Under the pieces are notes generated by a model. It saw only the letters and a program-made list of their open reading frames with translations, made no database searches and was not told where the DNA came from. Positions 2,297 to 37,584 of a stretch of 50,554 nucleotides of DNA are shown piece after piece. Made by a program: the position numbers and the translations under genes. The stretch's first letter is position 1. Every line of letters starts with the position of its first letter. The DNA is from Ruminococcus sp. (GTDB lineage Bacteria > Bacillota > Clostridia > Oscillospirales > Ruminococcaceae), in NCBI GenBank assembly GCA_017626015.1, contig JAGAJO010000026.1, positions 1-50,554 of the forward strand. The letters run 5' to 3'.

Positions 2297-3646
2297 CTAC
2301 TTAAAATCTATTTCATTCCATTCAAGTGTTATCCTGTTCAGGTCGTCATCCGCAATAGATTTACCGAACTGTATCTCTATAAACTCAATATCACTGAGCG
2401 CTCTGACTGCGTGCTTTGTACCCGAAGGTATTCTTATAACGTCTCCGGCGCTGATAAGCTGTCTTATTCCGTTGACGATTATTTCGGCATTTCCTTTCAG
2501 CACCGTCCACACCTCGTCACGGCAGTTGTGATAGTGATAGCTTGAATTTAATCCCTCAAATATCTTTATCTTTCTGGTCGTGTTGAGAAATCCGTCCTTT
2601 TCTGTAACGTCAATGACCTTTATGGTACCCCAGCGTCTTTCCTCATACATCGGCGGCTGAACTATTCCGCTTACAACGTCCTTTATCCTCGGCGACTGCG
2701 ACTTGTCGGAAATGAGTATTCCGTCAAACGATGCTACCACCACCATATTTTTTGCACCCACGGCAACTACGGGAATGCCAAGCTCATTTATAATGTGGGT
2801 GTTTTCGCAGGAATCATCAAGGACCGCCTTTCCGACAGCGTTGGCTGACATTTCCTCCGAGAGAGTGTTCCACGTTCCAAGATCCTTCCAGAGTCCGTCA
2901 AACGCAACTGCGGATAGCTTCTGAGATTTTTCAAGCACCTCATAGTCAAAGCTTATCTTCGGCAGCTTTTCATAATTTGAAAACATCTGCTCATAATCTT
3001 TCGGAATGCCGTAAGGCTCGCAGCGTTTAAGAATATTCCCTATTTTAAGGCAGAAAACTCCGCAGTTCCATACCGCACCTTTTTCTATAAGCGACTTTGC
3101 AGTTTCCCTGTCAGGCTTTTCGGTAAAGCTGTCTACATTTATATAGCCGTCCTCTGTGGATCTTGGTACTATATAGCCAAATTTTGATGATGGATGATCC
3201 GGCCTTGCACCCATAAGCGTAACCTCTGCGCCGGATCTTTCAAGCACATCGGGCAGGGTTTTGAGGGTCTCAAAATAAAGCCTTTCGGTGTATGGGTCAA
3301 CGGGAATTATACAGACCACATCATCGTCCCCTGCACCCATTTTACTCTTTAAGTACGCACATGACAGCGCAACAGCGGGAAAGGTGTCCCGTCTGAACGG
3401 CTCGACTGCTATATTGATATTCCCAAGCTGACTGTTGAGTATCTCGACCTGACCCTTTGAAGCACAAATTATGCTTTTATCCGAAAGATCTGCGCTTTCA
3501 AGCTGTTTCCACACACGCTGCACCATTGAGCAGCGTTCGTTGCTTTCCTCTGTACTGAGGAGCTTGATGTACTGCTTGGATCTCAGGCTGTTAGACAACG
3601 GCCACAGCCTTGTGCCGCTGCCTCCGGACAGTAAAACTATAAACAT
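2297..3646 (-). CDS. manC: Mannose-1-phosphate guanylyltransferase with C-terminal mannose-6-phosphate isomerase-type cupin
   Basis: Makes GDP-mannose from mannose-1-phosphate and GTP. The start at 3646 gives 449 aa beginning [18 protein letters not shown], the pyrophosphorylase signature. FTEKPD follows in the middle. The last ~110 residues form a cupin with [11 protein letters not shown] and [12 protein letters not shown], as in type II bifunctional PMI/GMP enzymes (AlgA/XanB type). Whether the isomerase half is active cannot be read from the sequence. The ribosome site is weak (GAAAG). A longer in-frame extension of 26 codons runs through the hairpin element at 3674-3722 and was not used. 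It is the first gene of the manC-gmd-fcl operon, with its own promoter at 3753-3781. Confidence 0.92.
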
Positions 3647-3673
3647 AGTATCACACTTTCTATGTATCTTTAG

Positions 3674-3722
3674 GTCGCCTCTAAAAAGCATATGAGGTGC
3701 TAAGCGTTTTTTTAAAGGCGAC
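3674..3722. repeat. 49-bp inverted repeat in the manC leader
   Basis: The ends are GTCGCCTCTAAAAAGC and, inverted, GCGTTTTTTTAAAGGCGAC, with a ~14-nt loop. It lies between the manC promoter and the manC start, so the RNA would fold into a hairpin in the 5' leader. It is either a tiny mobile palindrome or a leader structure. No second copy was seen in the window. Confidence 0.7.
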
Positions 3723-3752
3723 ATTTATATAAAAACCAAAATCGTCATGATT

Positions 3753-3915: not shown

Positions 3916-6903
3916 TCACACGAACTCACAGTCCCAGACATCAACGCCGCTGTCCTGAAATACCTCTTTAAGCCTGTCGTGTACCTGTTTTTTTGTTACT
4001 CCCTTTTTGAGAATGACCTGCAAAAATCCTCCGCCGCCTGCGCCGCATATCATTTTGCCAACAAGCATATCCTCGATGGAAACAAGTATCTGATCTATGC
4101 AGGTGTTTGTGCAGCCTATGTCAAGTTTTTTGGAAAGCTCCCAGTGTGCGTCCATAAGCCCTGCAAAGGCGTCAATATCGCCCTTTTCAAGCTCATATCG
4201 CATAAGTGCGGCGTTTTCCTGTATCTCGGTCAGCGCCTCGATAGATTCCTTCCTTGCGCCAAGGTATTTTCCTACGACCTCATGCAGAAGATTTCTTGCA
4301 AGTCTGCGCTGACCCGTATAAATTATTGCAAATCTTTCCTGAAGCTCGGCTGTCGTTTGTGCGGACACGTCAAGCGCTGTACATTTTATTTTCTGTACCA
4401 TGCCCGGCTTTGATGTAATAAGCTTTATGCCGTTTGTCAGACCGCCGACCTGATCCTGCCAGCCGCCGCCTGTGGACATAAGCTGCTCCATAACAAGGAC
4501 GGTGGTGTAAAGCTCATCGTCGGTATAGCCGATCCCGAAAAATTCATACAAGGCTTTAACTGCCGCTCCTGCAAGAATAGAGCTTGTGCCAAGCCCGCTG
4601 CCCCTGGGAATATCAAGCACCTTTGTTGAAAGATAAAAGCCGCCGCCTATCTGTTCAAGAATATCGGATAGCTTCCGCTCACCCTCACGGGGGATAAGAC
4701 CAAATGAAATAAGCGCCGCCTTATGCAGAGCAAAGCTGTCGTAAGGATCGTGGCAGGCACGGATCTCAGCAGCATCGCCGAACTCACGGTATGCGCCTAT
4801 ATCCTCGCTTTCAAGAGCTATCACCGGCTTGTCTATCCTATGGATATTTACAACCACAGGCAGCTCTCCGTTCAGCTTTATTGCGGCATTCAGGACCGTT
4901 CCGCCATGCTCGTTGCAGTAGGGCGGAGTATCCGACCAGCCGCCGCCGAAGTTGACACGTACAGGCAGCCTGACGGTAACGTCCTGCTTTGCGATCTTAA
5001 GAGAGTTCTTTTCCTTTATAAGCTCCTTGCAGCTGTCAAAAACAGTATCGCTGATAAGCCTGAAGGCGGTATCCTCAAACTCCTCTCTGCTATGCTCAGC
5101 AAGCTTTGAAAGATAATAATAAGCCCTTATCTTTCTGCTGAAGCTGCTTTTTTCGGCGTCCTCAAGAATATTTCTGATAATTCTGTCATTAAGCCTTGTG
5201 CCTGCCATCTGTGCTACCGGAACAAAATTGTCAATGCTCTTTAAAAATCTCTGCGCAGCGATCTTGTCCTCAAGCTTTGACGCCCACGGTATTATTTCGG
5301 TGACATTGGCTTTGTTAAAGCTTTCACAAAGCGATATGCGATTGGTATTTCTGAACAGCTCTGCGCTGCCGCCGCCGTTTACCATATCGCAGATGTTTAT
5401 TGCAAATGAAACGGTGTCATTTATATTGTTTTCGCATGAATACAGCTTAGCTGTCCATAGATAATGCTCCTCGCCCTCGTCCCAAAGGTCGTTGACGGTA
5501 ATGCCGTTCTTTATCATAAATTCTTCGATAGTGATACCCATGAACATACCGTTCTTTTCAAGCATATCCTTGGGATTGTCGTTTATGCCGTAAGCTCTGC
5601 AAACAAAGCTGTTGTCATTCTGCTTTAAGCAATGGATAACGGTATTATCGGGGATCGTCACAGCATCAAGTGTGGCAGTTGAAACGATGCAGTTATTTCC
5701 TATGACCGTACCGTTCATTATGTAGCTGTCCTCAATATAAATGTTTTCGCCAAGTCTTACATTATGCTGAAGGTAAGAATTATTGGTGGAGCAGTTCTTA
5801 TTCTGATGGACAGTGCTTTTTACTATCGGCTTCCAGTCAAGAAATCTGTATGCATCAAGCTTTTGGGTTATAAGCGCAAGCAGCTCCTTCGTTGTACCGA
5901 AATGAATAAACTCAGCCGGCGAAAGCGACAGCAGCTTTAAGCTGTAGCTGCTGATCGCATTCCAGATCGCCGTTCTTGCCTCATGCAGCTGTTCTGTAAA
6001 GCTGCCCTCCGGGATCTCTTTATAGAACTGTTCAAGCGTCGAATCCTGAGCAAGAGGATAGAGAAAATCCGCATAGAATGAAAGCCTTGCCTCTTCGCTT
6101 ACAAACTTATCGAACTTTTTCTTGTCGTTATCACCGTTTGTTGAAATAAGGGAGAAAAGGCTGTTTAACAATCCGCTTGAAAAAATTACTGCGCCTGTAT
6201 CGATATTAACGTTGCCGTTTTCATTGACTGCGCCTTTTTTTATTAGCTGTTCTACCGACTGCTTATGCAGAAATTCGCTGACGCAGCCATTTTCACCGCC
6301 GAGAAAAACGCCGTGATCCTCGCCTGTCCTTGCAGACTCTTTAAACGAAATACAGGCTGCGCCGCTGCCGGTAAAATCGATTTGCAGAGGATTAAAAAGC
6401 AAAAGCACATCGCCCGAAAGAACAAGCATACCGTCCTGGATCCTTGACGGAACGCCGCTCATACCAATGATAAATTCGTCAAACAACGTTGAACGTCTGC
6501 CGTCCGGCAGCTCATGGGGAACAGGTGCAAAAAGCTTACCGCAGGCAGAATACTGCGGCACACGCTTACTGTCGCCGCCGCTGTGGATAACAAGTATATG
6601 CTTGCCTATAAAGCAGTCGGCTCTGCCTTCCTGCTCACGGATATATTTGAGCACATTAAAAGTAGCGCCGCCCGAGCCGACCCTTTTACCGTCGGGATCG
6701 GGCAGTACGGCGTATCTTGTTTCACGGGGCAGATAACCGTTTTTCACACGGTACTTTATCTGCTCGCTGTAAGCCATAGCCTGACTTTCATTAGACGCAG
6801 TAAGTATAATATAGTCCCACTTGGGGAAACGAGAACGTGTTAAGCTTCTTTCATAATCGGCATGATTGTCCATATAGGACTGCTGTAAAAACATTGATTT
6901 CAT
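3916..6903 (-). CDS. fkp: Bifunctional L-fucokinase / L-fucose-1-phosphate guanylyltransferase
   Basis: Salvages free L-fucose. The C-terminal GHMP kinase makes fucose-1-phosphate and the N-terminal pyrophosphorylase turns it into GDP-fucose. The protein has 995 aa, slightly longer than the characterised Bacteroides Fkp (about 950 aa). The N-terminal half has GSGGATFNVL at residues 76-85, then a left-handed-helix-like stretch (NCSTNNSYLQ, VIGNNCIVS). The C-terminal half has FGGGWSDTPPY near residue 650, the GHMP ATP loop PRGSGLGTSS near 766, and GAGGGGF at 954-960. The start is ATG 6903 behind AAAGGA. It is a single-gene unit upstream of manC-gmd-fcl and separated from it by 269 bp and a promoter. 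Both domains look complete. Confidence 0.93.
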   Translation of the reverse strand: MKSMFLQQSYMDNHADYERSLTRSRFPKWDYIILTASNESQAMAYSEQIKYRVKNGYLPRETRYAVLPDPDGKRVGSGGATFNVLKYIREQEGRADCFIGKHILVIHSGGDSKRVPQYSACGKLFAPVPHELPDGRRSTLFDEFIIGMSGVPSRIQDGMLVLSGDVLLLFNPLQIDFTGSGAACISFKESARTGEDHGVFLGGENGCVSEFLHKQSVEQLIKKGAVNENGNVNIDTGAVIFSSGLLNSLFSLISTNGDNDKKKFDKFVSEEARLSFYADFLYPLAQDSTLEQFYKEIPEGSFTEQLHEARTAIWNAISSYSLKLLSLSPAEFIHFGTTKELLALITQKLDAYRFLDWKPIVKSTVHQNKNCSTNNSYLQHNVRLGENIYIEDSYIMNGTVIGNNCIVSTATLDAVTIPDNTVIHCLKQNDNSFVCRAYGINDNPKDMLEKNGMFMGITIEEFMIKNGITVNDLWDEGEEHYLWTAKLYSCENNINDTVSFAINICDMVNGGGSAELFRNTNRISLCESFNKANVTEIIPWASKLEDKIAAQRFLKSIDNFVPVAQMAGTRLNDRIIRNILEDAEKSSFSRKIRAYYYLSKLAEHSREEFEDTAFRLISDTVFDSCKELIKEKNSLKIAKQDVTVRLPVRVNFGGGWSDTPPYCNEHGGTVLNAAIKLNGELPVVVNIHRIDKPVIALESEDIGAYREFGDAAEIRACHDPYDSFALHKAALISFGLIPREGERKLSDILEQIGGGFYLSTKVLDIPRGSGLGTSSILAGAAVKALYEFFGIGYTDDELYTTVLVMEQLMSTGGGWQDQVGGLTNGIKLITSKPGMVQKIKCTALDVSAQTTAELQERFAIIYTGQRRLARNLLHEVVGKYLGARKESIEALTEIQENAALMRYELEKGDIDAFAGLMDAHWELSKKLDIGCTNTCIDQILVSIEDMLVGKMICGAGGGGFLQVILKKGVTKKQVHDRLKEVFQDSGVDVWDCEFV

Positions 6904-15773: not shown

Positions 15774-16838
15774 TCAAAGCTCTTTTCCGTACAGTCTGTA
15801 AAGATAGTCAAATTCGGCATAGTCGGAATAGTACTCCCCTGTGATCTTCCCCGTACGTATAAGAGCGCCGATAGAGCTTGCTCCGTTTTTTACAAGCTCC
15901 TGCTCGATCGTCTGCACCAGTGCCTTGCCAAGTCCATGGTGAGCCTCATCGACTCCCATGTAAAGCATAACGTACTCATGGGGACGTTTTTTTATTTGCA
16001 GTATCTTCACAAGCTTTCCGGGAGTAAGTCTGCCTGCGGAAAGATTGCATATATTGGGAACGCTTATGTAAAATCCCACAGCTTGTCCGTCTTTGTACGC
16101 AAGCTTTACCATAGAGTAATCCAGGATAAATTCAAGTGAAGAATAAATGCTGACAAATTCGTCCTCGGTGATGAACTTATATGCGGGAAAGTCGCTGTAA
16201 AGGCTGATAAGCATACGGTAGACCTCCCTGATAGAAGTCCCAAAGCTTTTCGCCGAGGGGCTTTTTATTATATAACCCTCCGAAAGCTTTTCTTCAAGTC
16301 TGCGTGCGAATTTCTCCTCACGGATATTTTCCGTCATCGGCTTAAAGTGCATTGACTTATACTGATGCTCCGCCTTATAACCCGCTTCAAGAAAAAGCCT
16401 TTCATAATATGGCATATTGTAAGGCTCCCCCGTATACGGAGGCCGCTCGAAATGATTTACCTTAAGGCGGTATTTTATCCAGAAGGAAGCGTCCACCGGT
16501 CCGCATATCCTTTTGCAGCCCTTTTCCCGAGCAATACGCTCAGCCTCGTCAAAAACCGCTGCCGCAGCTTTGCGGCTCCTGATGCTCTCAAAAAAGCCGA
16601 AATACGCCGTTTCGTCTCCGTGATAGACCGTGACCGCTCCCCTTGCCGCAGGAGCTTTTCCGCTCAGCGCCAGTATAGGATAAAAATCAAAATATCTGCT
16701 TAAAACGTGTTTACCCTCAAGCAGAGCCTTTTCGTCCGAAATGCTTTGAGTAAGTACGTCCTCAGAGTAAATATGTCTCGGGAGCGCAAGAAATTTTCTG
16801 TTGAGATCCTTTCCGTAAGGGCATAGCGAAATACTCAT
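15774..16838 (-). CDS. GNAT-family acetyltransferase
   Basis: Predicted acyl-CoA-dependent N-acyltransferase of 354 aa with unknown acceptor. The N-terminal half has a conserved-looking block (ICGPVDASFWIKYRL, YNMPYYERLFLEAGY). The C-terminal half has the GNAT acetyl-CoA region (AVGFYISVP, LYMGVDEAHHGLGKALVQ). Its ATG overlaps the stop of the upstream ligase by 4 bp (ATGA), which implies translational coupling. It is the last gene of the six-gene operon and could acylate the operon's product. Confidence 0.75.
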   Translation of the reverse strand: MSISLCPYGKDLNRKFLALPRHIYSEDVLTQSISDEKALLEGKHVLSRYFDFYPILALSGKAPAARGAVTVYHGDETAYFGFFESIRSRKAAAAVFDEAERIAREKGCKRICGPVDASFWIKYRLKVNHFERPPYTGEPYNMPYYERLFLEAGYKAEHQYKSMHFKPMTENIREEKFARRLEEKLSEGYIIKSPSAKSFGTSIREVYRMLISLYSDFPAYKFITEDEFVSIYSSLEFILDYSMVKLAYKDGQAVGFYISVPNICNLSAGRLTPGKLVKILQIKKRPHEYVMLYMGVDEAHHGLGKALVQTIEQELVKNGASSIGALIRTGKITGEYYSDYAEFDYLYRLYGKEL

Positions 16839-18277
16839 TTCATTCGTCCTCCCGGCTTGTCGTCCTTGATGTGCAGACGGCGTATTTTCTTGAATTTAGG
16901 CAGCTTTTCATTTACCGACTCCATAAACGCCCTTATCCCGCTTTCACCTGCTGAGCAAAACTCCGCATATACGGTCGCCGTGATCTCGCCGTTTTCGATA
17001 AACACCTTTGCGGCATGGATATCCGGATTTTCGGTGATAAGCTTTTCTATCTCATCGGCGTAAACATTTTCTCCGTCAGGTGTAATGAGCGTGCGCTTTT
17101 TTCTGCCTGAAACATACAAATGATTTTCGCTGTCCAACCTTCCCAGATCACCCGTGTGATAAAAACCGTTTTCGTCAAAGCAGAAACTGTTTCCCGGGAA
17201 ATCAAGATATCCGCAGCTGACAGAACCACCTCTCACGGCTATCTCTCCCTCTCCGCTGCTGTCGGGATCGAGAATTTTGACAGTAAGATTTTCAAAGACC
17301 GTCATTTCCTTTTCCGCTTTGCCGTCAACGACCTTGGAAAGCGCTATGACCGACGAGCTTTCCGATGTGCCGTAAGCCTCAACGCAGCATACGCCGTTAT
17401 CCGTAAACCAGCTTTTAAGCTCGGGACGTGTAAAGCTTCCTCCCGTATAAAGGAACCTCACGCTGCGCAGAGCCTCCAGCAGCTCGTCAGTCATAAGACT
17501 GTACATTTTCTCCAGCAGTATGGGAACAGTACAGATAACGGTAGGTCGTATCGCAATAATATCTTCGTTTATTTTCCTCATATCGCTGCAAAGATAAAGC
17601 TTCATACCGGAAATTATTGTGTAGAGAAAATTCGCAATGCCCGAATAAACGTGACTCAGCGGCAGAAACACATAGGATCTGTCGCTGTCCGTCATGGGAG
17701 TGCGCCTGTACAGAGTGTCCCAGTTGGTAAACATATTTCGCTGAGAAAGAGGAATAGCCTTTGGCGTTGAGGTCGTCCCCGAGGTAAATATGATCTTTAC
17801 CGTTTTTTCCATATCTCTGCGTGGAATCAGCTGTGTGTCCGGTAAGGTCTCTGAGCTGTTTAACAGCCTGTCAAAATCGTCGGAAAGAGAAAAAAAGCTT
17901 ATATTTTTGTATTTTTCCATAAGCGGAGCAATAAGCTCCTTCCTGCTGTCCGAGTAAAAGAACGCAGCCTTTTCCGTCTGTTTAAGAATATTCTCCAGAT
18001 CAAACGCCGTCCATTCCTTATCCAGCGGTACGCTGACAGCAGAATAACCCATAGCGGCAAGATCGCAGACCATCCATTGATAGCTGTTTTCACCGAATAT
18101 ATAGACCCTTTTCCCTGAAAAGCCCAAATGGCTGAGACTTTTCGCCAGACCTCTGACGTCCCGTACAGTCTCCCCGAAGGTCCTCGGCAGGAAAACTCCT
18201 CCGTTTTTTGTAAAAATATACGGATCTCCGCCCCGTTCAGACAGGCAGTCCTCCAGATATTCATGTATACATTTCAT
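16835..18277 (-). CDS. AMP-forming acyl-CoA synthetase/ligase
   Basis: Adenylate-forming enzyme of the ANL superfamily that activates a carboxylic acid with ATP. The 480 aa contain the P-loop-like FTSGTTSTPKAI, EAYGTSESSS (motif A5), YHTGDLGRLD and the hinge-following SGRKKRTLITPDGENVYADEIE. The end PGGRMK has a lysine where the family's catalytic lysine normally lies. The sequence is shorter than usual acyl-CoA synthetases. Substrate unknown. The start has GGAG. It follows the PEP-synthase-like gene by 15 bp and overlaps the GNAT gene by 4 bp. Confidence 0.85.
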   Translation of the reverse strand: MKCIHEYLEDCLSERGGDPYIFTKNGGVFLPRTFGETVRDVRGLAKSLSHLGFSGKRVYIFGENSYQWMVCDLAAMGYSAVSVPLDKEWTAFDLENILKQTEKAAFFYSDSRKELIAPLMEKYKNISFFSLSDDFDRLLNSSETLPDTQLIPRRDMEKTVKIIFTSGTTSTPKAIPLSQRNMFTNWDTLYRRTPMTDSDRSYVFLPLSHVYSGIANFLYTIISGMKLYLCSDMRKINEDIIAIRPTVICTVPILLEKMYSLMTDELLEALRSVRFLYTGGSFTRPELKSWFTDNGVCCVEAYGTSESSSVIALSKVVDGKAEKEMTVFENLTVKILDPDSSGEGEIAVRGGSVSCGYLDFPGNSFCFDENGFYHTGDLGRLDSENHLYVSGRKKRTLITPDGENVYADEIEKLITENPDIHAAKVFIENGEITATVYAEFCSAGESGIRAFMESVNEKLPKFKKIRRLHIKDDKPGGRMK

Positions 18278-18292
18278 TATGACAATCTCCGA

Positions 18293-20635
18293 TCATGTTT
18301 TCTTCGCAGACGTGTTGATCGTTACCGTACCGTCGAATCCGTTGAGCGTAACTGTGCAGCCGTCCTGAACGGCGTCAAAAAATCCCTGTATGCCCACCGC
18401 CGCAGGCTTTTTAAGCTCTCTGGAAATGATAGCCGTATGAGAAAGCAGAGAGCCCCTTTCACAGATCAGTCCTGCGCTTTTTGCAATGACGGATACCCAG
18501 CCTGGATCCGTCATTTTTGCAGCCACTATCTTACCGACTACGTTTTTGGTCATAAGCTCTGACGGATCCTCCAGCTTTACCACCTCGGCGGTGACGATTC
18601 CGCCCGAGCATGCCGTGCCGTGAAAGATCCCGTCCGCATTCCGATGCGGTACAGAATTTACATTTGCGGGAGAAACGCTTCTGACCTCTCCTGCAAAAAC
18701 AATGCGTCTCGGCGAGGGCATATCGGCGTACATACTGTAAAGAGCTTTTCTTGCGGCGATTTTCCCCCTCAGGTCCGCTCCTCTGTCAAGCGTCACGATC
18801 TCCTTGCATGAAAGATAGAAAATATCATCCGTTTCTTCGAGCTTTCCATCAGCCTTCAGCTGACCTGCCGCCTTGCGTATGATATCTCGCATAACTCCGT
18901 AAAGCCTTGCACGGTCAAGACGGGATCTTTCTCTCTGAGCTACTCCTTTTTTGGCTTTCCCTGCAATAAGCTTTTCGGGGAGCGTAAGCTTCGTATGACG
19001 TTTTGATCTCACGTTTTTCCCGGTGTTTGCGGAAAGTATCATCTTAACCAGTATTTCAGGAGCGGTTCTAGGTGTTTTCGCCTCCAGCTTAAGCTCCTCC
19101 GGCGCTCTGTCTCCGTAAAGCGAAATATATTTATCGAGAAATCTGCCGTAGCTGTCATAGTTTGAATCCCTGAAATTAAAATAATCCTCTCTGCTTCGTA
19201 TGTTTTTTAAGCTTTCGGTAAGTCCGTTTCTTTCAGCACGGAGCTTAAGCCTTCCCAGAGCCTTTACCGGCTTCATGCTTTCAAGCTCTCCCCCGCCGTA
19301 AATACTTTGACTCAAAACCTTTTCGTATTTTTCGTGCAGACGCTTTTTCAGTATTGCCTTTAGCATACCTGTATAAATAAATGTATACATATCGTTTACA
19401 AGGGTTATATCCCACACCGAGCATATCTCACGGCGGATCTTCACATACAGCCTCATAAGATTTTCCGCCCCGTCCGTTCTGTCGATCTCACGGCGGTACA
19501 GAGAGATCTTTCCTCGGAAGAATTTCTTCAGTCTTTTCATTCTGAGGTTGTTTGTGAACAGCAGATCGAAAAACCGCACCGTAACGGTGAGCTTGACAGA
19601 CAGTCCCGCCCTGAATCCCGAGGTTATTTCCCTGTCCTCTATCCCCAGCATATCCTGCCAGACCGGTATTATCTTTTCCGAAAACGGCAGCAGCCGCAGA
19701 ATGTCATACCAACCCGATATACGATAGTAGATACGTCCGTCGGCGCAGTCCGTCATTTTTTTCAGCGATCCGTCAAGCCGTTTTGCAACGTCCTCGCTTC
19801 CGGTAAGGCGTTTCACAACGCTGCGGAAAACTCCGTAATAAACCGCAGAGACGAAATCCTGCGTAAGCGGCAGCGAAACTCCCGGATAGCTTTCGCAGAT
19901 ATTGCTGGAATCGAGAATGATCCTTTCTCCCTCCGGCACGGCTGTGATCCTTCTTACCTGCAAAATGAATATCTCTCCGTTTTCCACGGCAAATTCGATA
20001 TCTGCGGGGAAATTTGCATAATCTGATATTTCCCGGGAAATATCCGTAAGCTCCTGTATAAGCCTTTCGTCTGCGATCGGCGAACCGTCTCCGCTTTCAT
20101 ACCAGCGGGAGCCGTCCGAGCGGTTTATGTAGTAATTTGTGCAGGCACCTCTGCCTGATACTACGCTTTCACCCAGTCCCCGACCGATGCTGATAACCGT
20201 TTCGTTCAGTCTGCCGTTGGGATTGACGGTGAATATCACACCCGAAAGCTGCGGACACAGCATTTTCTGAACTATGCAGAAGACCCTTTCCGAACCTCGG
20301 ATATTTTTTGCCCGTGCGTATTCCTTTCCCCCGTTATATGATACGCACTCCCCGATACGCTTCCTGACATCGGCTTTGGGTACATTCAAAAAGGTCCTGA
20401 ACTGTCCGGCATAGGAGCTTTCTTCTCCGTCCTCGCAGTCTGCGGAGGAGCGCACCGAAAAAAGCTCCCCGCCAAGACTGTCCAGAGCGGCGTCAAGCTC
20501 TGATATACTGAAATTTCCGTCCGTGCAGAAAAAGTCAGGCACATTGAAATCCGCAGACTTCAGAAGGAAAAGATTCTGCGCCTTTGTTCCGCACCGTGAA
20601 TGCTCTTTTACGTTTTTTAAAGTAATAATTCCCAT
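18293..20635 (-). CDS. PEP-synthase/PPDK-like phosphotransferase of unknown substrate
   Basis: The 780 aa combine an N-terminal ATP-grasp PPDK domain (FSVRSSADCEDGEESSYAGQ, DIEFAVENGEIFILQVRR) with a middle region of ~450 residues and a C-terminal swivelling phosphohistidine domain. The latter has ERGSLLSHTAIISREL, with the phospho-accepting His near residue 733. The PEP/pyruvate-binding barrel of true PEP synthase is not visible, so the architecture matches rifampin-phosphotransferase-like proteins: ATP, then enzyme-His-phosphate, then a small-molecule acceptor. The start lies 2 bp after the UbiA stop. In this operon the acceptor may be a lipid or prenyl intermediate; that is inference. Confidence 0.8.
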   Translation of the reverse strand: MGIITLKNVKEHSRCGTKAQNLFLLKSADFNVPDFFCTDGNFSISELDAALDSLGGELFSVRSSADCEDGEESSYAGQFRTFLNVPKADVRKRIGECVSYNGGKEYARAKNIRGSERVFCIVQKMLCPQLSGVIFTVNPNGRLNETVISIGRGLGESVVSGRGACTNYYINRSDGSRWYESGDGSPIADERLIQELTDISREISDYANFPADIEFAVENGEIFILQVRRITAVPEGERIILDSSNICESYPGVSLPLTQDFVSAVYYGVFRSVVKRLTGSEDVAKRLDGSLKKMTDCADGRIYYRISGWYDILRLLPFSEKIIPVWQDMLGIEDREITSGFRAGLSVKLTVTVRFFDLLFTNNLRMKRLKKFFRGKISLYRREIDRTDGAENLMRLYVKIRREICSVWDITLVNDMYTFIYTGMLKAILKKRLHEKYEKVLSQSIYGGGELESMKPVKALGRLKLRAERNGLTESLKNIRSREDYFNFRDSNYDSYGRFLDKYISLYGDRAPEELKLEAKTPRTAPEILVKMILSANTGKNVRSKRHTKLTLPEKLIAGKAKKGVAQRERSRLDRARLYGVMRDIIRKAAGQLKADGKLEETDDIFYLSCKEIVTLDRGADLRGKIAARKALYSMYADMPSPRRIVFAGEVRSVSPANVNSVPHRNADGIFHGTACSGGIVTAEVVKLEDPSELMTKNVVGKIVAAKMTDPGWVSVIAKSAGLICERGSLLSHTAIISRELKKPAAVGIQGFFDAVQDGCTVTLNGFDGTVTINTSAKKT

Positions 20636-20637
20636 GA

Positions 20638-21537
20638 TCAGATCTTCCCGAAAATAAGATATGCAGCAATGGTAATAAGCATCATAGATTCCTGAATATA
20701 GGTATATCTCTCAACCTTGCTCACGATTTTGTACTGAGTCGGATCACGCATAAATGAAATAAATTTCCACGTCATCCAGCAGGTATTCAAAAGCAGCGCC
20801 GCAACCGAAATTTTATTGAGATTCCACACCAGAAGCACGTTGGTAAGGATATCGACAATAGTAAGTATCAGCACGAACATAGTAGCCTTTTTGTAGCCGA
20901 AAAGCTTTGAATAGGTAACATATTCCGTCTCGTCCTTCGGAGCGCGTATCTTCCTTGAAACCTCCCATATAAGCGCAGGAAAATAAAGCGTCCACGCCGC
21001 AAGGAACGTTGTCAGACTCCATGCGTTCAGAGAATATTTTATGCAGGTAAACGAAATGATGTAAACGTTCATTATCATCTGCACCGGATTGTGAGTCACC
21101 AATGCCAGCGGAAGGCTTTTCTGTATCTTTTTCTTACTGAAAAACCATAGCGACATAAGGGTACCGTAAATGTAAAGGAACAGGAAAAATCCTATATTGT
21201 TCATGAAAACAAAGTTAAGTATGCAGGTGACTGCGATAAGCGCCGAAACAAAAATAGCCAGATCCTTTTTATGTACCCGTCCCGACGGCAGCGGTCTGGA
21301 GGAAAAAAGGCGGCAGTCAAGCTCATAATCCTTGAAATCGTCGGCTATCCTTAACCACAGCAAAAAGCTGAAAACGGTAAAGCCTCCGATAAATTCCTGA
21401 TAGTTGATATGAAAATCCGTCACACCGTAGTTGAGAAGAACGATAAAATAGATCTCTCCGAAAACGATAAATCCCAATAGCAGTCTTGGTACTATCGGAT
21501 ACATTTCTCTGAAATAGATTCCGAGCCTTTTAAGCAT
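20638..21537 (-). CDS. UbiA-superfamily prenyltransferase
   Basis: Integral membrane enzyme of 299 aa with about 8-9 predicted hydrophobic segments. The first Asp-rich motif is IADDFKDYELD followed by RPLPSGRV, which is the UbiA-type diphosphate/Mg2+ site; a second loop reads IWEVSRKIRAPKDETEYVTYS. The family transfers prenyl groups from prenyl diphosphate to aromatic rings or, in archaea, to glyceryl phosphates. The start at 21537 follows GGGGGG; a 36-codon extension overlaps the preceding gene and was not used. Lies 14 bp after the CarS-like gene. Acceptor unknown. Confidence 0.85.
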   Translation of the reverse strand: MLKRLGIYFREMYPIVPRLLLGFIVFGEIYFIVLLNYGVTDFHINYQEFIGGFTVFSFLLWLRIADDFKDYELDCRLFSSRPLPSGRVHKKDLAIFVSALIAVTCILNFVFMNNIGFFLFLYIYGTLMSLWFFSKKKIQKSLPLALVTHNPVQMIMNVYIISFTCIKYSLNAWSLTTFLAAWTLYFPALIWEVSRKIRAPKDETEYVTYSKLFGYKKATMFVLILTIVDILTNVLLVWNLNKISVAALLLNTCWMTWKFISFMRDPTQYKIVSKVERYTYIQESMMLITIAAYLIFGKI

Positions 21538-21551
21538 TTTGTTTTTCCCCC

Positions 21552-22142
21552 CTATAAATTTTTTCTTATTTTCAGCAGATACAGCACGGCGTTCACGGCT
21601 ATATGGGTCGCTGCCCCGAGCAGTATATACAGCCAATACTGCCACACCGGCATAGGATAAAAAAAGCTTATGACAAGTATCACTCCCAGCAGCGAATCTA
21701 TCTGATCCACAGCAAAGAACACCGCTCCCTTGATACCACTGACGGTTTTGCCGGAGGGTATATCGAGCCGCCGTTTTATAAAGCTGTTGGGAAGCTCAAA
21801 CAGCACATAGGCAAATCCCGTAAGTCCTCCCAGCAGGAGATTGAAGGCGGGCGTATTCGGGCAGCTTCCGTAAACGTAATTCCTGCTTTCAAGAAATTCC
21901 GAGATACCGCACAGAGATCCCCATAGAAGCTGGGAGATGCAACCGCAGACGATCATTCCGAAAAAGCCGGCAAAGGTCTTGTTGTCCCCGAAGATCCGTC
22001 TGCCGTCCCTGAGCTTTCTGCCCCGGTCGATAGGGGAAGCGCATGACCTGCATACCGAAGTCCTGCACCACAGCATATTGAGTATTCCCGAAAGTATACA
22101 GGGAGCCAGGGTAACGTACATTTTTCCGATCAATAAGCTCAC
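21552..22142 (-). CDS. CDP-archaeol synthase (CarS)-like membrane protein
   Basis: Membrane protein of 196 aa from the CTP-transferase (CdsA/CarS) group. It has DGRRIFGDNKTFAGF, which corresponds to the CarS signature DGRRxFGDxKTxxG, then PNSFIKRRLDIPSG and AVDQIDSLLGVIL, which match the second half of the CarS active region. Known enzymes activate a lipid phosphate with CTP. The preferred start is GTG 22142, whose GTGA overlaps the kinase stop; ATG 22121 is the alternative. It is the second gene of the operon. Real archaeol substrate is unlikely to be assumed; a polyprenyl or diacylglyceryl phosphate is equally possible. Confidence 0.8.
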   Translation of the reverse strand: MSLLIGKMYVTLAPCILSGILNMLWCRTSVCRSCASPIDRGRKLRDGRRIFGDNKTFAGFFGMIVCGCISQLLWGSLCGISEFLESRNYVYGSCPNTPAFNLLLGGLTGFAYVLFELPNSFIKRRLDIPSGKTVSGIKGAVFFAVDQIDSLLGVILVISFFYPMPVWQYWLYILLGAATHIAVNAVLYLLKIRKNL

Positions 22143-22513
22143 CTGCCCGCAATGTTTGAGATAAGCACGATCCCTTCGCATATAAAGAATGCAGCTCCCG
22201 CCGTCAGAACAGCTCCCGCAGAAACGTTTTTGATAAATTCAATATCGGAGCTTTCGTCGTGAGTTCTGCTGTCGCATACCCTTTCCAGCGCCGTGTTTAT
22301 CAGCTCTGCCGAAAACACAGCTGCCGTGCATACGGCAAACAAAGCGTAATCGTACTTTCCCGAACCGGTTATAACGTTAAACAGCAGAAAAGCGGCGGCA
22401 ATAAAAGTATATGTCAGAAAATTTTTTTCACTGCCAAATGCCGCTTTTATTCCCGCCGCCGCATATTTTACACTTGTAAGCAAGCTTTTCGTTATGTACC
22501 TCTGATTCTTCAT
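22139..22513 (-). CDS. DagK-type lipid kinase (diacylglycerol or undecaprenol kinase)
   Basis: Small integral membrane kinase of 124 aa, the length of Gram-positive DgkA/UdpK. It has three hydrophobic segments and the family motif AELINTALERVCD (ExxNTAxE). In Bacillus the homologue phosphorylates undecaprenol rather than diacylglycerol. The start is ATG 22513 behind AGAGGATGCTT; a 36-codon longer frame covers the promoter. It is the first gene of the six-gene operon and would supply a lipid phosphate to the CarS-like enzyme. Confidence 0.9.
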   Translation of the reverse strand: MKNQRYITKSLLTSVKYAAAGIKAAFGSEKNFLTYTFIAAAFLLFNVITGSGKYDYALFAVCTAAVFSAELINTALERVCDSRTHDESSDIEFIKNVSAGAVLTAGAAFFICEGIVLISNIAGR

Positions 22514-22543
22514 AAGCATCCTCTTTTGTTCTTTATTTAAAAC

Positions 22544-22588
22544 ATTATACCATAAACCGATCCGAAATGCAAGTACCCCACCGGGTAC
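22544..22588 (-). promoter_or_regulatory. Promoter and palindromic operator of the six-gene operon
   Basis: Minus strand: TTGCAT (22567-22572), a 17-nt spacer, TATAAT (22544-22549). Touching the -35 box on its upstream side is the perfect palindrome GTACCCCACCGGGTAC (22573-22588). This is a good candidate operator; the regulator is unknown. Confidence 0.7.
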
Positions 22589-22683: not shown

Positions 22684-23223
22684 TTAATCCTCTGTCATTT
22701 TTAATCTTAAGAAACGCTGCTCAACCTTTACGCTGTACTTCAGCTCGTAAGCCGGTATTCCCCTGAAAACAGCGTCCTCTATTTCGGCAATTTCCTTTTC
22801 CAGCTGCTGCTCGTCGGCGTACCACGCCAAAAATGTATTTGATCCTCCCCAAAGTGATTTCTCGTCGCTGCTAACACCAAACAAAGCATATTTCGGGGAT
22901 CTCTTCCCTCCCTTGAATCTCCGGGAAGACATCACCTTGCTGCATCTCGCAACGACGTGTTCATTCGGCGATGTAATTGTAATGATACCTGTCACCTTGT
23001 CAGACTCAGCAGCTTTTTCCTGTTCGTTCCCGGTTTCCATAAGACTGTCCAGCGATATGTTCAGCTTGCGTGACAGGAGCAGCAGCTTTTCTGCCTCCGG
23101 AAAGCCTGTTCCCTGCTCCCATTTTGAAACAGCCTGTCTGCTGACGTCCAGCATTTCTGCCAATTCTTCCTGCGAAAGATGCTTTTCCTTCCTGATTTTC
23201 TGTAGGTTTTCTGCAAAACTCAT
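22684..23223 (-). CDS. XRE-family regulator with a C-terminal domain of unknown type
   Basis: The 179 aa begin with a Cro/CI-type helix-turn-helix (LSQEELAEMLDVSRQAVSKW at about residues 20-39), a common Firmicute arrangement. The C-terminal ~110 residues (TGIITITSPNEHVVARCSKV, FGVSSDEKSLWGGSNTFLAWY) are not recognised and may sense a ligand. The start at 23223 follows GGAGGTAATCAGT; the ATG five codons upstream is part of that ribosome site. Target unknown. It is near the GTACCC operator of the lipid operon, but nothing in the sequence shows that it binds there. Confidence 0.85.
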   Translation of the reverse strand: MSFAENLQKIRKEKHLSQEELAEMLDVSRQAVSKWEQGTGFPEAEKLLLLSRKLNISLDSLMETGNEQEKAAESDKVTGIITITSPNEHVVARCSKVMSSRRFKGGKRSPKYALFGVSSDEKSLWGGSNTFLAWYADEQQLEKEIAEIEDAVFRGIPAYELKYSVKVEQRFLRLKMTED

Positions 23224-23354
23224 ACTGATTACCTCCATTCATAATTCTGGGATAATGGTATTATAAACGCAAACCTCAATAATTACTACCAACCTGTTTT
23301 TGCATTTTCGCAACTTGAATTTGCAGATTCAATTTTACATCTTATATGATCGTA

Positions 23355-31600: not shown

Positions 31601-33406
31601 TTACTGCTCTCCCTTTGAATATGTAAATTTCACCGTTAGGTTTGTTACCGATGTTGTCGGCGGTATATCCATAATAGTCGGCGAACACTCAGAAGCGTCC
31701 CCCTCTGCAACTCTTGCGTCCTCCGGCGGAGAAGATACCCAGCCGTTATACAGATTTACCCTTGTGCAAAGCCCGTCGTCCGAACATGTATATTCCTCTC
31801 CGCTCAGTTCAAACGGCTCTCCGTTTACAAGCACCTCGTCAATGGTAACGATATATCCCGGGAAAAGCTTTTCGCCGTTGGCTATGCCCAGCGCTGAAAA
31901 TGCAACGCCCTTCGGTATCTTGGAATCAGTGAAGTCAAGACTCACCGTATACGTTCCCTCGCCCTCTATCTTCACGTTTTCCGCCGCTACTCCGTCGGTC
32001 TTGGAGGCAGGATCGTATTCGTCTCCCACGCTGTAGGAAACTCCGAAATCCTCGCTCTGATACATTATCCACGCTACAGCGGTGTTTTCATCCGCCTGTA
32101 TAGCCGTATCGTCAGTAAACTTTTCGGGAGCGGCGGCAAAGGTCTCGTCTATCCTCTTTTTTGCGCTCTCCGCTATCTCGTCCTCCGTCATGGAGGACTG
32201 CGCCGAAAAGCTCCTTCCGGCAAAGATCTCAGCAATATTTTCGTCCCTCATCTGCAAGGTCGTCCGCTGGAAGAAATCGCTGCAATCCCACAGCATCGGA
32301 CAGTAGTTGTACAGGTCGCAGTTGTCCAGAAAATTATTGAAGAACTTATCCGTATCGCCCTTGACGGCTCCGCCGTTTGTCAGCACGGCATATTCTCCGA
32401 TTATGATACCGTACCCCTGCTCGGAATACTTTGTCATCATCTTCATGAGCCTGTTCTGCTCCTCATAATCCTTTATATTTCCCCAGCGGGAACGGCTCGT
32501 CGTTCCGCAGTAATCCCACGGTGTATAATAATGTACAGACAGCAGAAGCTTGTTCTTTGCGGTGTCCTCAGGCATTTTAAAGCGATCGTCGCAGGTACAG
32601 GTGATATCGGTGTTATACCCGGCAATAAGCAGGAATCTCTGCTCGTTATTACCGCCCGTTCCTCTGACGGTATCCACAAACCTCTGATTTATAGCAGCTG
32701 CCGTTTCATAGCACTGATCCTTTGTCAGCGTACCCGAATCCGTAGCCACGTCCTTATCGTTGAGCCTGTCTCCAAGCTCCTCGTTTGCCGACTCGAAGAT
32801 CAGACGGTCGGAATAATCACGGAATCTCTCAGCGATCTGCGTCCACATGGAAACGTACATATCCATAGCCTTGTTCCGTGTCTCCTCGGAGGCAGAGCCG
32901 AACATTCCCCACCAGCTGCCGTCCCAGTGGTCGTTTATGATAACGTACATATCGGCATTAAGACCGTAGCCCACTACCTCCTCCACCCTGTCGAGGTACG
33001 CCTCGTTTATGGTGTAGTCGCCGCTTTCATAGTCCATAGCATTTGTCCATGCCACCGGGATCCTCAGCGAATCAAATCCCGAAGCCTTCATGCCGTCGAT
33101 CATTTCCTGCGTTGTCACAGGCTGACCCCATAAGGTCTCAAAGCTTGTGGGATCTGTATCGGGCGAATAGCTATTGTGTCCATATGCCTCAAGAGTGTTT
33201 CCAAGATTTATTCCGTTGCCCATAAGATGCACCAGCTCGGCAGCGGTCAGATCCTTGTTTATACTTCCGTCGTCGGAGGTACTGACTGATTTCCCAGAAG
33301 ACGTGCTGCCCGAACTGTTCTCCTGCTGCTTTCCGCAGCCTGCAAGCTGTGTTGAAAAACAGACTCCCATTGCCGTAAGCAATGCCAGATATGATGCTTT
33401 TCTCAT
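31601..33406 (-). CDS. GH5 cellulase lipoprotein with C-terminal beta-rich module
   Basis: Extracellular endo-beta-glucanase of clan A. The 601 aa begin with a lipoprotein signal (lipobox LAGC, C24) and a Ser/Gly linker. The GH5 domain has NGINLGNTLEAYG, VIINDHWDGSWW, the acid/base ESANEE (E209) and the nucleophile-bearing IIIGEYAVL. From about residue 440 a module of ~150 residues (AWIMYQSEDFGVSYSVGD, VSLDFTDSKIPKGVAFSALG) follows, probably carbohydrate-binding. No dockerin or LPXTG is visible. ATG 33406 follows GGAGGTAATT; an ATG six codons upstream covers that site. It lies 14 bp after the GH43 gene in one transcript. Confidence 0.9.
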   Translation of the reverse strand: MRKASYLALLTAMGVCFSTQLAGCGKQQENSSGSTSSGKSVSTSDDGSINKDLTAAELVHLMGNGINLGNTLEAYGHNSYSPDTDPTSFETLWGQPVTTQEMIDGMKASGFDSLRIPVAWTNAMDYESGDYTINEAYLDRVEEVVGYGLNADMYVIINDHWDGSWWGMFGSASEETRNKAMDMYVSMWTQIAERFRDYSDRLIFESANEELGDRLNDKDVATDSGTLTKDQCYETAAAINQRFVDTVRGTGGNNEQRFLLIAGYNTDITCTCDDRFKMPEDTAKNKLLLSVHYYTPWDYCGTTSRSRWGNIKDYEEQNRLMKMMTKYSEQGYGIIIGEYAVLTNGGAVKGDTDKFFNNFLDNCDLYNYCPMLWDCSDFFQRTTLQMRDENIAEIFAGRSFSAQSSMTEDEIAESAKKRIDETFAAAPEKFTDDTAIQADENTAVAWIMYQSEDFGVSYSVGDEYDPASKTDGVAAENVKIEGEGTYTVSLDFTDSKIPKGVAFSALGIANGEKLFPGYIVTIDEVLVNGEPFELSGEEYTCSDDGLCTRVNLYNGWVSSPPEDARVAEGDASECSPTIMDIPPTTSVTNLTVKFTYSKGEQ

Positions 33407-33420
33407 AATTACCTCCGGTT

Positions 33421-34752
33421 TCATTTCAAAAACACAAATTTCTCAAGCTCGAACAACGGTTTCGGATCGAAATACGGCTTTGCCCAATCGTCAACGCCGT
33501 GAGATGCGATAAAAAATACCGAATGTCTGCCGGTTACGCACTTTACTCTTGTACGGTAGATACCGTCGCCGGTGCCTATTTCGCACACGCCTATCTCCTC
33601 GCCGTCCTCATAGCTGTCTGTCAGTATCCTTACACGGCACCTGACACCCGCTCCCCTTACCTTAAAGCAAAGCTCCATAGTTTTTGTGGATAGATCGTCT
33701 CCGAAATCAAAATATTTATAGCCTATGATATTTCCGTCGGTGATATTTACCACGTTCCTTGTAAACAGATCCTTTTCCGTGATGTAGCAGCCGCCCTTAA
33801 GCACGCAGGCGATCTCCGCAGGAGTAGGCTTATAGGGATCAAGAGAGCTTTCAAAACCCAGCGACGTCATCTCCACAGGGGGGATCGTACCGTCAGGAAG
33901 GATCTCTATGCGCTCTGCACAGGCTCTTCTGGACATAATGGTATTGTTTGTCATACGATGATAAAAAATATACCATTGTCCGTTTATGCAGCAAACAGAT
34001 CCGTGATCGTTTCCTCCGGGATAATCCTCGGAGTTATCGATTATGTACCCTCTGTAGGTAAATGGTCCCGTAGGGCTGTCGGAGGTTGCATAAGCAAGAC
34101 GGCTGCCCTTTATGGGCGAATATATAAGATAATAGGTATCCCCTATTTTTCTGGGAGAGCTTGCTTCAAAAAATCTCCGCTCCTCCGGGACGCTGTCGGT
34201 ATCGTCTATAACGTGCTTTCTTAGACTGCCGTCAATGATACCGTACATATTTTCCGGGTCAATTTCATTCATGTACGACTCGGTAAAGCCGTAATAAATA
34301 TAGACCCTGCCATCATCGTCCGCAAGCACGCCGGCGTCGTTGTAAATTCCCCCGTCGCCTTCATTGCCCTCAGTATACTTGTAGCGTGAAAGCAGCCTGA
34401 AGGGACCCTCCGGCTTGTCCGAGACTCCGACACAGCCCTTTGAACCCACTATATAGGCATAAAGATAATATTTTCCGTCCTTTTCAATAACATCGGGAGC
34501 ATAAAGCTCTCTGTCCGTCCACCCTGCGGTGTCCGAGCTGTGATCGCTGTCGTCCCCGGTATGAAAGCTGTGACCGTGGCACTGCCAGTTATTCAGATCG
34601 TCAAGGGGCGCAGACCACACCTTAAGCTTGAAATCGCAGAAATTATTGCTTCCCACACGGTCATGGGAACCGTAAAGATAAACTCTGTCCCCGAAAACTC
34701 TCGGCTCTCCGTCGGGAATATATTCCCACAGCGGCAAAATCGGATTTGGCAT
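33421..34752 (-). CDS. GH43-family glycoside hydrolase
   Basis: Five-bladed beta-propeller glycosidase, probably a beta-xylosidase or alpha-L-arabinofuranosidase. The 443 aa begin MPNPILPLWEYIPDGEPRVF, the usual GH43 entry. LYAPDVIEKDGKYYLYAYI, FFEASSPRKIGDTYYLIYSP (catalytic Glu region) and PGGNDHGSVCCINGQWYIFYH are propeller-blade landmarks. The C-terminal ~120 residues form an accessory beta-sandwich. No signal peptide is seen, so the enzyme is cytosolic and would act on imported oligosaccharides, while the co-transcribed GH5 lipoprotein works outside. The start is behind AAGGAG. Confidence 0.88.
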   Translation of the reverse strand: MPNPILPLWEYIPDGEPRVFGDRVYLYGSHDRVGSNNFCDFKLKVWSAPLDDLNNWQCHGHSFHTGDDSDHSSDTAGWTDRELYAPDVIEKDGKYYLYAYIVGSKGCVGVSDKPEGPFRLLSRYKYTEGNEGDGGIYNDAGVLADDDGRVYIYYGFTESYMNEIDPENMYGIIDGSLRKHVIDDTDSVPEERRFFEASSPRKIGDTYYLIYSPIKGSRLAYATSDSPTGPFTYRGYIIDNSEDYPGGNDHGSVCCINGQWYIFYHRMTNNTIMSRRACAERIEILPDGTIPPVEMTSLGFESSLDPYKPTPAEIACVLKGGCYITEKDLFTRNVVNITDGNIIGYKYFDFGDDLSTKTMELCFKVRGAGVRCRVRILTDSYEDGEEIGVCEIGTGDGIYRTRVKCVTGRHSVFFIASHGVDDWAKPYFDPKPLFELEKFVFLK

Positions 34753-34786
34753 ATAAACAGCTCCTTATTATTGTACTTTGTTTAGA

Positions 34787-34815
34787 ATTATACCATATCT
34801 GCCCATTGTTTTCAA
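34787..34815 (-). promoter_or_regulatory. Promoter of the GH43-GH5 operon
   Basis: Minus strand: TTGAAA (34810-34815), a 17-nt spacer, TATAAT (34787-34792). The leader is about 30 nt. Confidence 0.7.
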
Positions 34816-34835
34816 GAGGTAATTCCCAGAAAAAC

Positions 34836-34876
34836 ACGTTCCCCTGAAAATCTTTTTGAGATCCTCAGGGGAACGT
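34836..34876 (-). terminator. Terminator of the Zn/Cd exporter operon
   Basis: A 12-bp stem, ACGTTCCCCTGA against TCAGGGGAACGT, followed on the minus strand by GTTTTTCT. It lies just past the ATPase stop. Confidence 0.8.
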
Positions 34877-34884
34877 TTCAATTT

Positions 34885-36729: not shown

Positions 36730-36756
36730 AACATTACCTTCTTTCCTTACTGTCTG

Positions 36757-36919
36757 AGAACCTGTCTTCATAAGATTTGTGTGCGGATTTTCGAGCAAAT
36801 TTTGTCTGCGGACAAGACGCAAAGCCGCAGGCTTACTGACGTAAGTCAAGGTTTTGCAACGCAGTCCCCGACAAAATCTGCCGAAAAGACGTGCGCTATA
36901 TCTTGTTAAGACAGGTTCT
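36757..36919. mobile_element. 163-bp palindromic element with AGAACCTGTCTT ends
   Basis: Terminal inverted repeats AGAACCTGTCTTCATAAGAT and ATCTTGTTAAGACAGGTTCT (about 18 of 20 positions match). The interior is also a long imperfect palindrome around TTACTGACGTAAG. MITE-like and without coding capacity. It lies inside the operon between the HMA gene and the ATPase gene, so the message would carry a long hairpin there. Confidence 0.8.
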
Positions 36920-36926
36920 GAAATAT

Positions 36927-37148
36927 TTACATAATGATCTCGCAGTCCGGCTCGATCTTCCTGCAAAGCTTTACTACCTTTTTCATGAGCTTATCAATAT
37001 CTGTGCCGTCCTCGGTCTCAATGGTCATCTTCTGAGACATAAAGCTTACGGTGCAATCACTGACGCCCTCCAGCTCCTTTATGCCGTTTTCCATTTTTGC
37101 AGCGCAGTTTGCACAGTCAAGATCCTCAAGTCTGAAAGTTTTTCTCAT
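36927..37148 (-). CDS. Free-standing heavy-metal-associated (HMA) domain protein
   Basis: Metal-binding ferredoxin-like domain of 73 aa with the CxxC site in DLDCANCAAKMENGI and the HMA ending KKVVKLCRKIEPDC. Such domains usually form the N-terminus of the P1B ATPase; here it is a separate gene, and the downstream ATPase lacks it. It could act as a chaperone or metal donor to the pump. The start follows AGGAAAGGATATGTTATT. It is 29 bp after the repressor gene. Confidence 0.88.
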   Translation of the reverse strand: MRKTFRLEDLDCANCAAKMENGIKELEGVSDCTVSFMSQKMTIETEDGTDIDKLMKKVVKLCRKIEPDCEIIM

Positions 37149-37177
37149 AATAACATATCCTTTCCTAAATATAAAAA

Positions 37178-37528
37178 TTATTCCTCAACGTGTTCCATAC
37201 CCATTTCAAGGATCGATCTGACGTGATCGTCCGAAAGCGAATAGAACACGATCTTGCCCTCTCGTCTGAATCGCACAAGCTTGTTATTTTTCAGCACCCG
37301 CAGCTGGTGAGAGCAGGCTGTGGGAGTAAGCCCCAGCAGCTGCGCAAGATCGCCCACGCAAAGCTCCGATTCAAAAAGCGCATACAGTATCCTTATCCTG
37401 GTGGAATCTCCAAACACCTTAAAAAGCTCCGCCAGATCGTAAAGCTGCTCGTCAGGGGGCATCAAGGCAGTAAGCTTTTCCACTGCCTCACTGTTAGCAC
37501 AAAGCAATTCCATTTTTTCAGCCGGCAT
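37178..37528 (-). CDS. ArsR/SmtB-family zinc-responsive repressor
   Basis: Winged-helix metal sensor of 116 aa. The DNA-binding helix is in LLGLTPTACSHQLRVLKNNKL. The alpha-3 site is degenerate (ELCVGDL, one Cys instead of CxC). The alpha-5 end DDHVRSILEMGMEHVEE keeps DxH-x10-HxxE, exactly the spacing of the SmtB/CzrA zinc ligands, so zinc sensing through alpha-5 is predicted. The start follows AAAGGAGGTCG. It is the first gene of the operon and should repress it at 37585-37606 until zinc (or cobalt, cadmium) rises. Confidence 0.9.
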   Translation of the reverse strand: MPAEKMELLCANSEAVEKLTALMPPDEQLYDLAELFKVFGDSTRIRILYALFESELCVGDLAQLLGLTPTACSHQLRVLKNNKLVRFRREGKIVFYSLSDDHVRSILEMGMEHVEE

Positions 37529-37584
37529 AAATACGACCTCCTTTACATTGTATATGCGTCAAAATGTCCATGTGTTCATTACTT

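Follow-up and report, generated by a model that had tools for sequence, protein, structure and literature searches.

A rare Clostridia gene cluster centred on a UbiA-type prenyltransferase and a possible second phospholipid pathway

The enzymes most closely resembling those considered here are known from four settings: the archaeal glycerophospholipid pathway, the bacterial sphingolipid cluster (E. coli yghO, with a fatty acyl-AMP ligase, an epimerase, an acyl carrier protein (ACP) and spt), the Rph/PigC/RedH family of phosphoenolpyruvate (PEP) synthase-like enzymes, and the CdsA, PssA and PSD branch leading to phosphatidylethanolamine. The gene yghO is listed among those encoding the acyl-CoA N-acyltransferase that takes part in dihydroceramide synthesis, and the same source states that its E. 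coli product "might be" such an enzyme (PMC9386255). A C. difficile ubiA gene (CD0982) is named in PMC3789822. Here we analyze a six-gene operon in contig JAGAJO010000026.1 of Ruminococcus sp. (the 50,554-nt stretch is referred to as the window), which combines relatives of enzymes from all these systems and recurs, in much the same order, in other genomes. No description of the cluster was found among the open-licence PubMed Central (PMC) papers listed in searches for it or its marker, judged by titles, abstract openings and passages, those of PMC11087976, PMC9385802, PMC11334938 and PMC6431249 included; this agrees, to that extent, with a preliminary description of the window, which knew of no characterized pathway with this gene set.

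Operon structure and conservation of the gene cluster

Open reading frames and family scans place six closely packed genes on the minus strand between positions 22513 and 15774, and the families assigned to them in the preliminary description are the ones recovered by the scans:

22139..22513, minus strand: DagK, small membrane lipid kinase of the DgkA family; start 22513 inferred (22519 alternative)
21552..22133, minus strand: CarS-like CTP:lipid-phosphate cytidylyltransferase; start inferred, 22133 (TTG) or 22121 (ATG)
20638..21537, minus strand: UbiA-superfamily prenyltransferase, PRK13592 family; corrected start 21537
18293..20635, minus strand: PPS, PEP-synthase-like ATP-dependent phosphotransferase (PPDK_N and PEP-utilizers)
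16835..18277, minus strand: predicted AMP-forming ligase for an acyl (or other acid) substrate (AMP-binding)
15774..16838, minus strand: GNAT, tandem-GNAT acyltransferase of the YghO superfamily (Acetyltransf_1 and YghO kinship)
22572-22544, minus strand: promoter-like site, TTGCAT-17 bp-TATAAT, identified by eye
15761-15729, minus strand: intrinsic terminator-like site at the operon end, 15-pair stem, loop of 3 and T-rich tail (scanner)

The starts of DagK, CarS and UbiA required correction, based on homologue starts and Shine-Dalgarno-like sequence judged by eye. The resulting spacings, from DagK to GNAT, are 5-17, 14, 2, 15 and -4 bp, much as the gaps or overlaps of 2-15 bp originally reported. 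The single promoter proposed at the same time has a counterpart in the promoter-like site, where a TG sits one base ahead of the -10 element, but this site is absent from the output of the consensus scanner.

Relatives were sought with a UbiA profile and pattern scan of 84,980 species genomes, which returned 165 stretches with a relative, the best 80 of which were taken as loci. Gene content was then counted by a tblastn re-scan of 81 loci, with L012 added and L009, L010, L011 and L013 left out because their contigs have the same lengths as those of L065, L040, L084 and L090, respectively; contigs are short, and absences are therefore lower bounds. UbiA is present in all 81 loci, PPS in 79, GNAT in 72, CarS in 65 and DagK in 54, followed by phosphatidylserine decarboxylase (PSD, 40), a CDP-alcohol (serine) transferase (PssA, 38), the AMP ligase (26) and a second PEP-synthase-like protein, PPS2 (13). 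The commonest arrangement is DagK-CarS-UbiA-PPS-GNAT (22 loci), with 17 loci showing DagK-CarS-PssA-PSD-UbiA-PPS-GNAT and 10 showing UbiA-PPS-AMP ligase-GNAT. Most loci with CarS keep the order DagK-CarS-(PssA-PSD)-UbiA-PPS-(AMP ligase)-GNAT, and rearranged loci are few (e.g. L012, L052, L068, L070 and L074). Because the same genes recur together, mostly in one order, in the loci found, the six-gene operon is real and not a chance arrangement. This shared synteny supports the view that the genes form one unit, and the search for it in other genomes, set beforehand as an attempt at refutation, came out in favor of the operon. UbiA, PPS and GNAT constitute the core of the cluster, while DagK and CarS are dispensable. 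The preliminary six-gene picture thus has to be amended on this point, and it was incomplete in lacking the serine transferase and decarboxylase, the YghO kinship of GNAT and the alternation between DagK and PPS2 described below.

Pairwise identities of the eight other gene families of the cluster follow those of UbiA (r 0.71-0.95). The mean pairwise identity of UbiA itself is 0.72, as compared with 0.44-0.59 for the other cluster genes, which is unusual for a membrane enzyme.

By record title, the loci belong to Ruminococcus, Lachnospiraceae, Oribacterium, Pseudobacteroides, Eubacterium yurii and others, and include the isolates Pseudobacteroides cellulosolvens ATCC 35603, Ruminococcus flavefaciens YRD2003 and Lachnospiraceae bacterium NK4A144. 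In a phylum sample of 398 genomes, UbiA matches were limited to three, the window's own at full length and two partial and weak (1.6e-5 and 9.8e-4). Among 100 relatives, own genome included, seven had a UbiA match, of which six were strong (2.5e-115 or better) and one was a weak fragment (5.2e-4). Strong GNAT matches (1.4e-124 to 2.0e-154) occur in the identical six genomes; a chance coincidence of two such sets among 100 genomes would be expected, by hand calculation, about once in 1.2 billion draws, a figure that is overstated because the genomes are related, five of them belonging to one genus. The cluster is hence rare and patchy among Clostridia, and this spread suggests horizontal movement. 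Plasmid carriage is unsupported, with no UbiA match among 72,556 plasmid records.

Gene families and conserved residues

The presence of individual genes was assessed in 20 genomes, all of them with the cluster, which were chosen by hand and not at random and include several metagenome-assembled genomes (MAGs); completeness is given for five. CarS is present in 16 of these genomes, always within about 9 kb of GNAT; G494 and G499 each give an additional weak match, which is their CdsA gene. A CdsA-type gene was detected in 19 of the 20, including 15 of the 16 with CarS, the exception being G504, a MAG. The confinement of CarS to the cluster, beside a separate CdsA, suggests a distinct CDP-lipid. 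The window's copy matches Pfam PF01864 (4.6e-18, 66.3 bits against a cut-off of 22) and, at 1.5e-21 but under the equivalog cut-off (77.1 of 148 bits), the NCBIfam CDP-archaeol synthase model. KRR and D159-x2-D162-S, which we take to be the catalytic residues of CarS, are retained in 65-66 of 66 aligned rows.

The prenyltransferase scores 445.3 bits with the NCBIfam model NF010118/PRK13592, over the cut-off of 443, and 33.2 with Pfam UbiA, just under the cut-off of 34.2. No paper naming NF010118/PRK13592 was found in the open-licence PMC literature, and sequence searches of the PDB with the UbiA and GNAT profiles returned no match. Among the chains compared (the best 1000 from Foldseek), the fold of UbiA is nearest to archaeal digeranylgeranylglyceryl phosphate (DGGGP) synthase. 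The resemblance of the lipid kinase, CarS and UbiA trio to archaeal lipid enzymes, pointed out in the preliminary description, is supported.

The operon copy is the sole UbiA match in the window's genome (G000), and the MenE model reaches 173.9 bits, far under its cut-off of 330.15; a menaquinone or ubiquinone route was rejected on these grounds, as had been argued earlier for menaquinone. Archaeol synthesis based on geranylgeranylglyceryl phosphate (GGGP) synthase was likewise rejected, again in keeping with the earlier account: the full-length enzyme is absent from the 20 genomes searched, the window's genome yielding no match at all. Short weak matches occur in three of the 20 (46-52 of 226 positions, E 1.5e-4 to 5.8e-4), and the one in G494 lies barely over the family cut-off (24.2 versus 23.9 bits, neighbors included). 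Polyprenyl synthase matches number one in 17 of the 20 genomes, three in G493, two in G496 and none in G504. We therefore infer that the prenyl donor would be farnesyl or geranylgeranyl diphosphate (FPP or GGPP) from central metabolism. An operon-local polyprenyl synthase was rejected as a candidate, the two extra genes (about 202 and 290 aa) having turned out to code for members of the CDP-alcohol transferase and phosphatidylserine decarboxylase families.

These two genes, PssA and PSD, are added to the cluster in many relatives. In the two clusters scanned, Pfam places both proteins above its family cut-offs and NCBIfam below its equivalog cut-offs; both serine transferases match archaetidylserine synthase best, under cut-off. 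The PssA motifs DG-x2-AR and G-x3-D-x3-D are found in 38 of 38 rows, and the cleavage-site Ser of GGST in PSD in 40 of 40, residues to which we assign their presumed family roles. The window's genome carries a profile-recognized PssA-PSD pair elsewhere, on contig C5 (L133:3944-6565), and no other PSD. A 361-aa protein encoded ahead of that pair has, by eye, the look of a membrane protein and might be a lipid flippase.

DagK (Pfam DAGK_prokar, 4.7e-20) has E71, N74, E78 and K96 in every one of the 55 aligned rows, with codon 22516 as the first of the numbering; these positions, together with D97, are presumably catalytic. PPS contains PPDK_N (4.5e-28) and PEP-utilizers (7.6e-18) domains, and its closest solved structures, 5fbs and 5hv2, are listed as 'Phosphoenolpyruvate synthase' and are, we assume, rifampin phosphotransferases. 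His733 and other ATP-site-type residues, which we take to be catalytic, are invariant in 31 of 31 rows, and the combination of an ATP-grasp and a phosphohistidine domain with its catalytic His places the protein in the PEP synthase/Rph-type superfamily. It is not PEP synthase proper: the best equivalog score is 612.7 of 850 bits, TIGR01418 gives 123.5 of 739.75, and all of the best 25 of 26 NCBIfam models matched remain under cut-off. In the 65 loci with CarS, the cytidylyltransferase is accompanied by DagK in 54 and by PPS2 in 11, never by both or by neither, so that a PEP-synthase/Rph-like protein occupies the place of the lipid kinase in some lineages.

GNAT (Acetyltransf_1, 2.5e-7) is a full-length homologue of YghO (ceramide N-acyltransferase type). 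It is present in all 20 genomes; in E. yurii (G496) it lies apart from UbiA, with no cluster gene adjoining. The AMP ligase (AMP-binding, 1.6e-52) is optional, and the best 25 of its 99 NCBIfam matches are of acyl-CoA-ligase type, all under cut-off. No strong serine palmitoyltransferase (SPT) match was obtained in the 20 genomes, 18 of which, the window's included, had none and two of which had partial matches (1.6e-6 and 3.4e-6, 30% identity), and an ordinary sphingolipid pathway was rejected for this reason.

Weak YghO-like matches (1.8e-16 to 2.0e-25) occur in four other genomes of the 100 relatives, with no other cluster gene around them when searched with our own profiles at 1e-4 (gene calling in L147 missed the GNAT). 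A second group of YghO-like GNATs was noted in other genomes of the order (L145:6809-7945, L146:7121-8239 and L148:7218-8432), those of L145 and L146 lying, by eye, near a gene for ribosomal protein L19. In E. coli K-12, yghO (L127:3044-4216) extends at its beginning into an IS5; many of the E. coli listed match it only from base 71, without the IS5 part, and in one of these strains the neighbors of yghO are spt and genes for ACP and an acyl-AMP ligase.

A candidate pathway and its alternatives

Taking together the observed gene content, synteny and co-occurrence, the presence of CarS beside a separate CdsA and the retained catalytic-type residues, we tentatively propose, at somewhat below even chances for the model as a whole, that the cluster encodes a dedicated second phospholipid pathway. 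From the gene families we infer the reactions, their order, the donor and the acceptor as follows. UbiA would use FPP or GGPP of central metabolism to prenylate a small polar acceptor, which PPS probably phosphorylates or otherwise activates. GNAT would add an acyl chain, most likely by N-acylation, with the AMP ligase as supplier of the acyl group in clusters that have one; the result would be a ceramide-like lipid alcohol with two chains. This alcohol would be phosphorylated by DagK, or by PPS2 in some lineages, and CarS would convert the lipid phosphate to a CDP-lipid, on which the serine transferase would install phosphoserine, to be turned into phosphoethanolamine by the decarboxylase. 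It is plausible that the phosphohistidine enzyme, ligase and acyltransferase further phosphorylate and acylate the product, as first suggested. Of the steps in the model, those of the head-group branch have the strongest support and those of the backbone chemistry the weakest. The more specific proposal of a hybrid lipid class, with archaeal-type prenyl and bacterial acyl chains (an isoprenoid 'ceramide-phosphoethanolamine' made without SPT or GGGP synthase, with PEP-synthase-like enzymes as lipid phosphotransferases), is rather unlikely. Should the pathway be as proposed, rumen and gut Clostridia would make an uncharacterized membrane lipid by a route spanning the divide between archaeal and bacterial lipids, and lipid phosphorylation would become a further role of the PEP-synthase-like superfamily.

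Several observations weigh against this pathway. The second Asp motif of UbiA, compared using what we take to be the Asp numbering of E. coli UbiA, is altered, and the standard prenyl-diphosphate reaction is therefore not assured. D97 of DagK is kept in 54 of 55 rows, the window's copy being the sole exception, with Asn; as the window's genome holds a second DgkA gene (G000:C14), the cluster DagK may be weakened or respecialized. Four of the 20 genomes (G496, G498, G506 and G507) have neither a CarS nor a DagK match, and two of these also lack PSD. Kinase and cytidylyltransferase thus travel together, and in these genomes the product of the core would not be activated in the proposed manner. 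The alternation of DagK and PPS2 maps to a single change on a UbiA+PPS tree (a quick tree, with long-branch warnings and an unknown root), and hence counts as one replacement, in either direction, rather than as recurrent support. GNATs of the YghO type are also found with no cluster gene nearby, and the one compared, in L146, fits the profile no worse than YghO itself (99.3), so that belonging to this family is not proof that a lipid base is N-acylated.

The main rival, which we consider somewhat improbable, is that UbiA, PPS, the AMP ligase and GNAT make a prenylated, acylated non-phospholipid, such as a signal or secreted metabolite, and that DagK, CarS, PssA and PSD are merely neighboring phosphatidylethanolamine genes. 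It owes its standing to the four genomes just mentioned and to 14 of the 81 loci, one of them (L029) cut at a contig end, that have UbiA and PPS without DagK, PPS2 or CarS, and it is also favored by the below-cut-off resemblance of PPS to prodigiosin and undecylprodigiosin ligases, among other models. However, a CarS found only near the core, in genomes that nearly always encode CdsA separately, is unlikely to be a housekeeping enzyme, and the order from DagK to GNAT is kept in most loci with CarS. The UbiA fold, the CarS family member and the archaetidylserine synthase-like transferases would also accord with an archaeal-type prenyl-ether phospholipid, UbiA acting as a DGGGP synthase and an unrecognized, perhaps PPS-dependent, enzyme replacing GGGP synthase. 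Such a route would leave the near-universal GNAT without a role and, with no full-length GGGP synthase and an altered UbiA motif 2, we regard it as distinctly improbable. Plant phytol kinases feed tocopherol synthesis, and CTP-dependent prenol kinases are related to CTP transferases; CarS weakly matches PF01148, and DagK and CarS could accordingly be pictured as successive kinases salvaging isoprenol into a prenyl diphosphate for UbiA. We deem this very improbable indeed, given that UbiA occurs without either gene in the same 14 loci and that many clusters place PssA and PSD, needless for salvage, between CarS and UbiA.

Neighboring genes and comparison with known systems

A helix-turn-helix gene lies upstream of the operon (22684-23238), set apart by an apparent hairpin of its own, seen by eye and not listed by the scanner. 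Elsewhere, the window encodes a fucose pyrophosphorylase/GHMP-kinase fusion of 995 aa (3916-6903), an adjoining sugar nucleotidyltransferase with a mannose-6-phosphate-isomerase-type domain (2297-3724) and, as consecutive minus-strand genes (31601-40366), a GH5 cellulase, a GH43 enzyme and two P-type ATPases.

Every part of the operon belongs to a known superfamily. With the archaeal glycerophospholipid pathway the cluster shares a UbiA-type protein of DGGGP synthase-like fold, a CarS-like protein, a serine transferase related to archaetidylserine synthase and a decarboxylase; it departs from that pathway in the missing full-length GGGP synthase and the altered UbiA motif, and goes beyond it with a PEP-synthase-like enzyme, a lipid kinase, an acyltransferase and a ligase. 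The likeness to the bacterial sphingolipid cluster lies in the YghO-superfamily acyltransferase and, in 26 of the 81 loci, an AMP-forming ligase, but SPT gives no strong match in the 20 genomes, and UbiA and PPS may stand in place of long-chain base synthesis. PPS resembles the Rph/PigC/RedH family in its PPDK_N and phosphohistidine domains, invariant His and similarity to 5fbs and 5hv2, and differs in scoring below cut-off for the best 25 of 26 models, in its lipid-operon setting and in having a paralogue that alternates with a lipid kinase. The phosphatidylethanolamine branch is mirrored in the PssA and PSD members found inside or outside the cluster, with the difference that here a kinase and a second, non-CdsA cytidylyltransferase accompany the pair.

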